Shown piece by piece: positions 43,583-45,358 of a stretch of DNA of 64,000 nt; the first letter of the stretch is position 1, and each line of letters begins with the position of its first letter. Made by a program: the position numbers and the translations under genes. Origin of the DNA: Hallella bergensis DSM 17361 (GTDB lineage Bacteria; Bacteroidota; Bacteroidia; Bacteroidales; Bacteroidaceae); the NCBI RefSeq assembly GCF_000160535.1, contig NZ_GG704781.1, positions 143,594 through 207,593 of the forward strand. The letters run 5' to 3'. Below the pieces are notes generated by a model. The model made no database searches. It saw nothing but the letters and a program-made list of their open reading frames with translations, and was not told where the DNA came from.

Positions 43583-45358
43583 ATGAGCAAGAAAATTCAG
43601 TTCAGTCTCCTCTACAGGGACATGTGGCAGAGTTCCGGAAAATTTCAGCCACGCAAGGATCAGTTAGAGCGCATCGCCCCGGTCATTATAGACATGGGAT
43701 GTTTCTCCCGTGTGGAGACCAATGGTGGTGCTTTCGAGCAGGTGCAACTGCTTGCCGGTGAGAATCCAAACGAAGCCGTGCGCGCTTTTTGTAAGCCCTT
43801 CAATGAGGCCGGCATCAAAACCCATATGCTCGATCGTGGCCTGAACGCACTTCGTATGTATCCTGTGCCCGATGACGTGCGTGCCATGATGTATCGAGTG
43901 AAGCATGCACAGGGCGTGGACATTACCCGTATTTTTGATGGCTTGAACGACATCCGCAACATTGCACCCTCCATCAGATGGGCCAAGGAAGCCGGAATGA
44001 CTCCGCAGGGAACATTGTGCATCACCACGTCTCCTGTCCATACGCTCGACTATTATGAGCATTTGGCCGATCAGGAGATTGCTGCCGGTGCAGAGGAAAT
44101 ATGTCTCAAGGATATGGCCGGCATTGGTCAGCCAGCATTTTTGGGTCAGCTTACGAAGCGCATCAAGGACAAACATCCCGACATCATTATCGAATATCAC
44201 GGCCACTCGGGTCCGGGTCTGAGCATGGCTTCCATGCTTGAGGTTGCGCGCAACGGTGTCGACATAATTGATACGGCCATAGAGCCACTATCGTGGGGCA
44301 AGGTACATCCTGACATTATCTCGGTGCAGAGCATGCTGAAAGGTGCCGGCTTCGACGTTCCGGAAATCAACATGGGTGCGTATATGAAGGCACGTGCCAT
44401 GACACAGGAATTTATTGATGAGTGGCTCGGCTACTTTATCAATCCCGGCAACAAAATCATGAGTTCGCTCCTCTTGGGCTGTGGTTTGCCCGGTGGCATG
44501 ATGGGTTCGATGATGTCGGATCTGAGTGGCATTCACGGCACCATCAACAATCTGCGCAAGAAGAAGGGAGAACCTGAGCTGAGCGTGGACGACCTGTTGA
44601 TAAAACTGTTCGACGAAGTGGCCTACGTGTGGCCTCGTGTGGGCTACCCACCATTGGTGACCCCGTTCTCACAATATACCAAAAACATCGCACTCTTCAA
44701 TCTCCTGACAATGGAGCAGGGCAAGGGTCGCTATGCCATGATGGACGACGCCATGTGGGGTATGATTCTCGGCAAGAGTGGCAAGGTACCCGGCAAGATC
44801 GACGAAGAGCTGGTGAAGTTGGCCAAGGAGAAAGGCTTTGAGTTTACCGATGCCGATCCTCACACGTTGCTTCCAAACGCACTCGACGACTTCAAGAAGG
44901 AGATGGATGAAAACGGTTGGGTCTACGGACAGGACGACGAAGAACTCTGGGAGCTGGCCATGCACCCCGAGCAGTACCGTAACTACAAGAGCGGGCAGGC
45001 TAAGAAAAACTTCTTGGCCGACTTGCAGAAAGCCAAGGATGCCAAGCTCGGTAGCAATGCCACGCCCGAGCAGTTGGCTGCGTATAAGCATGCCAAGGCC
45101 GATGCCATCGTGGCTCCGGTCAAGGGACAGGTGTTCTGGGAGTTCCAAGGTGATGGCGAAGCTGCCCCGGCCGTAGAACCCTATATAGGCAAGAGCTATA
45201 AGGAGGGAGATGCCTTTTGCTGTATCCAGGCTCCTTGGGGCGAATTTGTGCAGGTCAGTGCTGCCTTGGGTGGCAAGCTTGTGGAAATCAATGCCCGACA
45301 GGGATCAAAGGTTCAGAAAGGCGACGTCATAGCCTATATCGAGAGAGAACATGAATGA
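43583..45358 (+). CDS. Carboxyltransferase of the oxaloacetate decarboxylase-alpha/PycB family, degenerate biotinyl domain
   Basis: A 591-residue protein resembling oxaloacetate decarboxylase alpha or pyruvate carboxylase B. The N-terminal HMGL-like TIM barrel holds YRDMWQSSGKF, NGGAFE, DITRIFDGLND, the carboxylatable Lys176 in EEICLKDMAGIGQ and metal ligands His206 and His208 in IIEYHGHSGPG. A helical PYC-OADA domain follows (to about 430). The last 83 residues look like a biotinyl domain (IVAPVKGQVFWEF, then GGKLVEINARQGSKVQKGD), but the site where families carry an A/VMKM loop reads CCIQAPWGEFVQV (549-555 is QAPWGEF), with no Met-Lys. The barrel also diverges from classic OadA (GHSGPG rather than HDTSG-type). 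Either biotin sits on another protein or the enzyme works differently. Confidence 0.85.
   Translation: MSKKIQFSLLYRDMWQSSGKFQPRKDQLERIAPVIIDMGCFSRVETNGGAFEQVQLLAGENPNEAVRAFCKPFNEAGIKTHMLDRGLNALRMYPVPDDVRAMMYRVKHAQGVDITRIFDGLNDIRNIAPSIRWAKEAGMTPQGTLCITTSPVHTLDYYEHLADQEIAAGAEEICLKDMAGIGQPAFLGQLTKRIKDKHPDIIIEYHGHSGPGLSMASMLEVARNGVDIIDTAIEPLSWGKVHPDIISVQSMLKGAGFDVPEINMGAYMKARAMTQEFIDEWLGYFINPGNKIMSSLLLGCGLPGGMMGSMMSDLSGIHGTINNLRKKKGEPELSVDDLLIKLFDEVAYVWPRVGYPPLVTPFSQYTKNIALFNLLTMEQGKGRYAMMDDAMWGMILGKSGKVPGKIDEELVKLAKEKGFEFTDADPHTLLPNALDDFKKEMDENGWVYGQDDEELWELAMHPEQYRNYKSGQAKKNFLADLQKAKDAKLGSNATPEQLAAYKHAKADAIVAPVKGQVFWEFQGDGEAAPAVEPYIGKSYKEGDAFCCIQAPWGEFVQVSAALGGKLVEINARQGSKVQKGDVIAYIEREHE

Follow-up and report, generated by a model that had tools for sequence, protein, structure and literature searches.

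The window, a stretch of 64,000 nucleotides of Hallella bergensis DSM 17361, contains the gene of a carboxyltransferase whose C-terminal domain resembles a biotinyl domain but lacks the biotin lysine. The locus raises the question of where such an enzyme would find its biotin and which reaction it would then serve. The gene reads as one open frame encoding 591 aa, and the product has the order carboxyltransferase barrel, PYC_OADA domain and biotinyl-fold domain (from about residue 506). Its features are as follows.

43583..45358, + strand: carboxyltransferase, 5S/OadA-like, 591 aa, with a biotinyl-like C-terminal domain without the biotin Lys (stop included)
43616..43630, + strand: RDMWQ, residues 12-16, with Arg12, Asp13 and Gln16, all three invariant in 129/129 homologues without the biotin Lys
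44108..44110, + strand: Lys176, invariant in 129/129, aligned with the LKDMA motif of 5S
44198..44206, + strand: His206-Gly-His208, both His invariant in 129/129, aligned with HCH of 5S
44594..45025, + strand: PYC_OADA conserved carboxylase domain, residues 338-481 (PF02436, 61.8 bits against a cut-off of 27)
44660-44662, + strand: Thr360, inside the PYC_OADA domain, 129/129
45098..45346, + strand: biotinyl-fold domain without the biotin Lys, residues 506-588 (Pfam, profile-profile comparison, AlphaFold model, dN/dS)
45227..45247, + strand: hairpin QAPWGEF, residues 549-555 (alignment of homologues)
45236-45238, + strand: Trp552, codon TGG, at the biotin-Lys column (alignment of homologues)

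The catalytic roles of the active-site residues are general background for carboxyltransferases. By homology, Asp13, His206 and His208 are presumed to be metal ligands and Lys176 is taken to be the carboxylated metal-ligand lysine of the family. Eight catalytic residues were checked (Arg12, Asp13, Gln16, Arg85, Lys176, His206, His208 and Thr360) and all are invariant among the 129 homologues without the biotin Lys. The retention of Lys176 and His206/His208, claimed in an earlier note on this DNA, is thus confirmed. The same note had described the other barrel motifs as divergent, which is true of the surrounding sequence and not of the eight catalytic residues. The metal and lysine site of a 5S-type keto-acid carboxyltransferase appears intact at the residue level, and by its residues the protein is classed as a carboxyltransferase of the pyruvate/oxaloacetate type whose active site is intact. 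The solved relative with the best sequence score is transcarboxylase 5S (E 1e-51). In structure comparison OadA 2nx9, PycB 5ks8 and 5S were tied (Z 36.8-36.0), so the fold alone cannot choose among OadA, PycB and 5S. The genome is Prevotella-like: the closest named homologues among the matches listed, from which records of the own genome may be missing, belong to Prevotella sp. UBA7764 (89%) and P. jejuni (86%).

The quotations and coordinates given earlier for the C-terminal domain proved exact, with IVAPVKGQVFWEF, CCIQAPWGEFVQV and GGKLVEINARQGSKVQKGD all found within residues 509-591 (45107-45355). The Met-Lys biotin site is indeed missing, as Trp552 occupies the biotin-Lys column. Pfam recognises only the second half of the domain, beyond the hairpin, with 29.2 bits for Biotin_lipoyl_2 (cut-off 29.8) and 19 bits for Biotin_lipoyl (cut-off 22.1). 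A profile-profile comparison (hhalign) with the Lys-bearing OadA domains gave 97.2% probability and an E value of 4.4e-11. The best match of the domain-only AlphaFold model (pLDDT 80.8) was the E. coli biotinyl domain 1bdo (Z 12.8, rmsd 1.8, 80 residues). On the evidence of profiles and predicted model, the C-terminal domain is a biotinyl domain despite its sub-cut-off Pfam scores.

The homologues collected numbered 144, counts that are not independent since the named loci and the genomes with G handles overlap in species. After L056 (fused) and L197 and L066 (fragments) were set aside, 129 without the biotin Lys and 12 with it were left. Met-Lys stands at the biotin site in 12 of the 144 collected. 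Among the 129, the biotin-Lys position holds Trp in 116, Tyr in 6, His in 3, Gly in 3 and Phe in 1. The alignment indicates that the lysine loss is common to the whole clade and far from chance. Of the hairpin, whose conservation among homologues the earlier note proposed to check, the Trp is shared by 116 of the 129; the spread of the Lys-less form and the selection on it exclude a motif that is confined to this genome and in decay.

The barrel part has a median dN/dS of 0.089. For the biotinyl-like domain, which is less constrained, the median is 0.215 and 75% of pairs lie under 0.3. These values come from the 712 pairs out of 5995 that had a dS under 1.2 in the barrel and over 0.05 in the domain. 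The biotinyl-like domain is under purifying selection and is kept without its biotin site, not decayed. A frameshift, already denied in the earlier note, and a pseudogene are both ruled out by the single open frame and this purifying selection. Together, the invariant catalytic residues and the low dN/dS suggest that the catalytic part is intact and that the domain is maintained without the biotin site. The dead domain is probably a docking or assembly module, which is a guess.

The suggestion that the domain is a relic, or that the whole protein is one, moonlights or works alone as a biotin-independent oxaloacetate decarboxylase, has in its favour the lost biotin site and the divergence of the barrel surroundings from textbook motifs. 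The invariance of the catalytic residues (129/129), the median dN/dS of both parts and the shared Trp speak against it, and a lone decarboxylase would leave unexplained that presence of the protein goes with absence of biotin carboxylase (below); this group of explanations is unlikely. Biotinylation at another lysine of the domain would be conceivable from the several Lys left there. Any Met-Lys in the domain was found in only 5 of the 129 homologues, none at the biotin position, and this explanation is extremely improbable.

OadA has the same order of carboxyltransferase, conserved carboxylase domain and biotinyl domain, and the protein is 55-59% identical to the Bacteroidales OadA, its close Lys-bearing paralogues beside OadB. 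On this basis it could belong to a Na+-translocating oxaloacetate decarboxylase as its alpha subunit, with biotin supplied by a separate carrier. The differences are considerable: Trp552 takes the place of the biotin Lys, the score against TIGR01108 is 239.2 bits (cut-off 756.5), and of the 32 genus genomes that encode the protein, 16, this one among them, gave no OadB match. The close Lys-bearing paralogue adjoins OadB in 12 of 12 loci, compared with none of 19 loci checked for the form without Lys, at 14 of which the flanks extend only 1 kb. In all 19 genomes with both, within a set of 60, that form and OadB lie on separate contigs. One genome, G058, has both the Lys-bearing and the non-Lys forms. 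In a quick tree of the carboxyltransferase part, 11 Lys-bearing OadB-linked rows and the truncated L197, tagged as lacking Lys only for its missing C-terminus, formed one clade with support 100, outside which the 591-aa protein fell; the fragment L059 was omitted, and L056 was assigned to the Lys-bearing rows manually, its carrier motif being located further downstream. The tree gave no resolved backbone among the lineages without Lys, so the lysine may have been lost once or several times. A role as decarboxylase alpha subunit is very unlikely, and a Na+-pumping oxaloacetate decarboxylase was rejected for this genome as there is no OadB match.

For the biotin economy of the host genome, there are 12 matches to PF00364 at E <= 1, one of them over the cut-off, and this protein adjoins the sole Carboxyl_trans match of the genome.

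Contig C29:708999-710564: MmdA, 12S-type, 521 aa
Contig C29:710757-711194: biotin carrier, 1.3S-type, 145 aa, with EAMKM, after MmdA and a 49-aa ORF

MmdA matches 12S 1on3 with an E value of 2.2e-171, other PCC beta chains scoring higher. All 30 Prevotella carrier loci that were read, which come from 30 of the 36 genus genomes, retain EAMKM in the carrier. The locus is about 0.5 Mb from the 591-aa gene and the genes are unlinked. The 49-aa ORF between mmdA and mmdC (L229:6602-6751, C29 of the own genome) has a homologue in 30/30 Prevotella carrier loci read and no match in Pfam or NCBIfam; it is taken to resemble the small epsilon (MmdE) subunit of Veillonella. FabD, PEPCK and two proteins of the BPL/LplA/LipB (biotin/lipoate ligase) family are present. 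No match was found in this genome to biotin carboxylase (PF02785), OadB (PF03977) or methylmalonyl-CoA mutase (PF01642); it is 97% complete in 30 contigs, and single absences could be gaps. The gene neighbourhood of the 591-aa protein, viewed by eye in 80 named loci and the window at 4 kb or less per side, contained no biotin partner among the recurring flanking ORFs, which include QueF-like and LptD-like ones.

The earlier idea of a biotin carrier encoded elsewhere is hence supported by gene content, and it is very likely that the 591-aa protein uses such a carrier, with contact between the two still presumptive. The decarboxylase membrane subunit that was also to be looked for was not found in the 97%-complete genome, which makes a Na+-pumping decarboxylase unlikely here and a transcarboxylase the better fit. 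As no biotin carboxylase, OadB or mutase was found, the two carboxyltransferases would be the only enzymes to form and consume carboxybiotin. Deduced from gene content, the sole closed reaction with these parts is oxaloacetate + acyl-CoA -> pyruvate + carboxyacyl-CoA. Similarity to PycB (5KS8) in fold, domain order and length might instead point to the carboxyltransferase subunit of a two-part pyruvate carboxylase. The biotin Lys is missing here, though, and of the 32 genus genomes that encode the protein 31, the own one among them, gave no biotin carboxylase match; such a subunit is a highly improbable reading, and pyruvate carboxylase was rejected on the lack of a PF02785 match in the own genome.

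The distribution of the protein was followed through the genus (own genome and 35 others, 36 in all), the set of 60 genomes and 219 genomes of the family. Within the genus, where G014 was classed by identity alone (82%), the protein without biotin carboxylase was found in 31 genomes, biotin carboxylase without the protein in three (G001, G008 and G021, where it adjoins a Carboxyl_trans gene), both in one (G004) and neither in one (G032). This complementarity has a Fisher p of 0.002, shared ancestry being ignored. In the 60-genome set both occur in two (G004 and G037) and neither in 10, the near-complete G032 included. The counts for the family are 103 with the protein only, 55 with biotin carboxylase only, 35 with both and 26 with neither (Fisher p 1e-9, shared ancestry again ignored). 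Here the non-Lys form was defined by score, with a best hit of at least 767 bits; score and sequence agreed in 19 of 20 family genomes fetched, the sequence of the twentieth being cut off. In the Bacteroides-like group g27 both routes occur in 19 of 35 genomes.

The 26 genomes with neither speak against a simple rule. In at least three of them (G091, G164 and G193) a Lys-bearing OadA is encoded next to OadB and, having biotin of its own, could fill the same role. Four others, G135, G145, G146 and G238, gave no match at all to the 591-aa protein. G032 and G238 are near-complete genus members in which neither the protein nor biotin carboxylase was found, perhaps owing to assembly gaps; FabD is present in G032.

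The protein occurs with no biotin carboxylase, OadB or mutase found in 16 of the 36 genus genomes, the own genome included. MmdA was matched in 14 of these and the carrier in 15, the exceptions being G011 and G023 (86% and 56% complete), both without an MmdA match and the latter also without a carrier. Among genus genomes at least 90% complete, 11 of 22 show this pattern, and in all 11 the searches for MmdA, the carrier and FabD gave exactly one match each. Two of these, G016 and G024, are single-contig assemblies. OadB and mutase occur together in 18 genus genomes, OadB only in two incomplete ones and mutase only in none, as would be expected if the OadB of the genus is mostly the MmdB of the propionate pathway.

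The reading that these data moderately favour is a split transcarboxylase of the 12S/5S/1.3S kind, with a 5S-like subunit that has a dead biotinyl domain, which would make malonyl-CoA in place of acetyl-CoA carboxylase. In this scheme the 591-aa protein would act on the keto acid as the 5S-type carboxyltransferase. The transcarboxylase would have three or four parts, the others being MmdA (12S-type), the biotinylated carrier (1.3S-type) and perhaps the 49-aa protein. PEPCK would supply oxaloacetate. The biotin of the carrier would take the carboxyl group from oxaloacetate in the barrel of the 591-aa protein, leaving pyruvate, and MmdA would hand it to an acyl-CoA. With acetyl-CoA as acceptor, the product would be malonyl-CoA for type II fatty acid synthesis, replacing the ATP-dependent acetyl-CoA carboxylase. 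The own biotinyl domain of the protein would carry no biotin and serve in docking or assembly.

Membership of a transcarboxylase in this genome, the complex itself being presumptive, is likely. Malonyl-CoA for fatty acids as the main product is put at even or slightly better odds, acyl-CoA substrate and reaction direction being deduced. It is suggested as the most useful product because no biotin carboxylase, OadB or mutase was found: methylmalonyl-CoA would have no evident role without mutase, whereas FabD needs malonyl-CoA. Malonyl-CoA could in principle also come from some unrecognised enzyme. Across much of the gut genus Prevotella and related bacteria, it is an evenly balanced proposition that an oxaloacetate-driven transcarboxylase replaced ATP-dependent acetyl-CoA carboxylase in fatty acid synthesis, with a 5S-like subunit that keeps a dead, Trp-marked biotinyl domain as carrier docking module.

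The same parts list would suit a transcarboxylase for propionate, which converts methylmalonyl-CoA and pyruvate to propionyl-CoA and oxaloacetate as in propionibacteria, alongside or instead of a Na+ pump. Both uses are possible in the 18 of 36 genus genomes with mutase and OadB, and the best match of MmdA is TIGR01117 mmdA, though at 781, below the cut-off of 998.8. In the 16 genus genomes that keep the protein with neither mutase nor OadB found, however, methylmalonyl-CoA would be without a visible source, and a propionate role is rather unlikely. According to PMC11575231, propionate formation in Xylanibacter ruminicola depends on a Na+-pumping decarboxylase, not a transcarboxylase, and mmdA, a 50-aa gene and mmdC are part of the decarboxylase. 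Mutase-free relatives still keep a locus of this mmdA - 50-aa gene - mmdC type. The Na+-translocating methylmalonyl-CoA decarboxylase MmdABCDE of Prevotella/Xylanibacter shares MmdA, the protein of about 50 aa and the carrier with the present system (locus I, PMC11575231; PMC10542786). It differs in needing MmdB, of the OadB family, which was not found in the own genome.

The substrate-specificity position of MmdA is Ile in 29 of 29 readable genus genomes (13 without mutase and 16 with), the motif of G011 and G014 lying outside the stretch read. Ile also stands in the engineered glycolyl-CoA carboxylases 6ybq, 8pn7 and 8pn8 where 6ybp has Asp. The matching change in Streptomyces PccB/AccB (Asp422/Ile420) shifts the enzyme towards acetyl-CoA. 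In 12 genomes of other families the copy read has Ile in 4, Cys in 4 and Asp in 4; the genomes with the non-Lys form among these 12 are G043, G054 and G058, with Ile, and G036 and G037, with Cys. As a discriminator between genomes with and without mutase the residue was rejected, since it does not separate them. Ile at this position is a weak hint, compatible with use of acetyl-CoA.

Among known systems, the closest parallel to the proposed malonyl-CoA-forming transcarboxylase is the Propionibacterium transcarboxylase 12S/5S/1.3S (5S = 1RQB). The 5S-type barrel and catalytic residues are shared, a separate acyl-CoA carboxyltransferase and small biotin carrier are present (here on gene content alone), and there is likewise no biotin carboxylase or membrane pump, neither having been found in the own genome. 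The 5S subunit, about 30% identical, has no biotinyl-like domain, whereas the 591-aa protein carries an extra dead one and would thus be a variant, not a plain member. Further differences are that the genes here are unlinked and that the substrate is perhaps acetyl-CoA in mutase-free genomes. The Giardia transcarboxylase (Jordan et al. 2003) is presented in PMC8700996 as a fused ACC-like and PC-like protein with a carrier domain; this eukaryotic enzyme is one fused chain of 1338 aa, unlike the split parts here. In the Bacteroidetes table of PMC3199775, acetyl-CoA carboxylase subunits are marked '+++' (over half of 20 genomes), and Prevotella is unnamed in the main text. For Bacteroides thetaiotaomicron, PMC8865466 has BT1450 and BT1917 deleted singly and cites a deletion of BT1686-9; there are several such loci, so this is neutral here. 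In the open-access literature searched, no publication was found that puts forward this route for Prevotella or Bacteroidales.

Acetyl-CoA carboxylase is generally regarded as the near-universal way into fatty acid synthesis in bacteria and as a drug target. If the proposal of malonyl-CoA formation by transcarboxylation is true, oxaloacetate would be the carboxyl donor and lipid synthesis would be tied directly to oxaloacetate/succinate metabolism. The malonyl-CoA step itself would cost no ATP, and biotin carboxylase inhibitors would be without a target in these bacteria. The mmdA-mmdC genes would gain a role where no methylmalonyl-CoA source was found; in those genomes, annotating them as methylmalonyl-CoA decarboxylase cannot account for everything. 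A biotinyl domain retained after loss of its cofactor is also a testable case.

Related arrangements were noted among other homologues. In L056:1074-3281 (G047) an ESMKM biotin carrier is fused to a carboxyltransferase similar to the 591-aa protein, with flanking ORFs that by eye are enoyl-CoA hydratase-like and HMG-CoA synthase-like; OadB was not found on its 4.6-kb contig. This fusion counts in favour of the proposed transcarboxylase. Neither L060 nor L064, distant Lys-bearing homologues with about 30% identity, adjoins OadB. At L060 (G050:C3:1034303-1037826) a Carboxyl_trans gene is followed closely by an OadA-like gene with EAMKM, and with no biotin carboxylase match in G050 the pair looks like a linked two-gene transcarboxylase. 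The carboxyltransferases L063, L062, L061 and L065 (of G038, G040, G055 and G059), of about 565-577 aa and about 30% identical, end before the biotinyl domain in the alignment. This would be a further arrangement in which biotin has to come from a carrier encoded at another locus. Thermotoga maritima, the only one of 14 control genomes without a biotin carboxylase match, has matches to FabD, Carboxyl_trans and OAD_beta and is possibly another case of malonyl-CoA by transcarboxylation.
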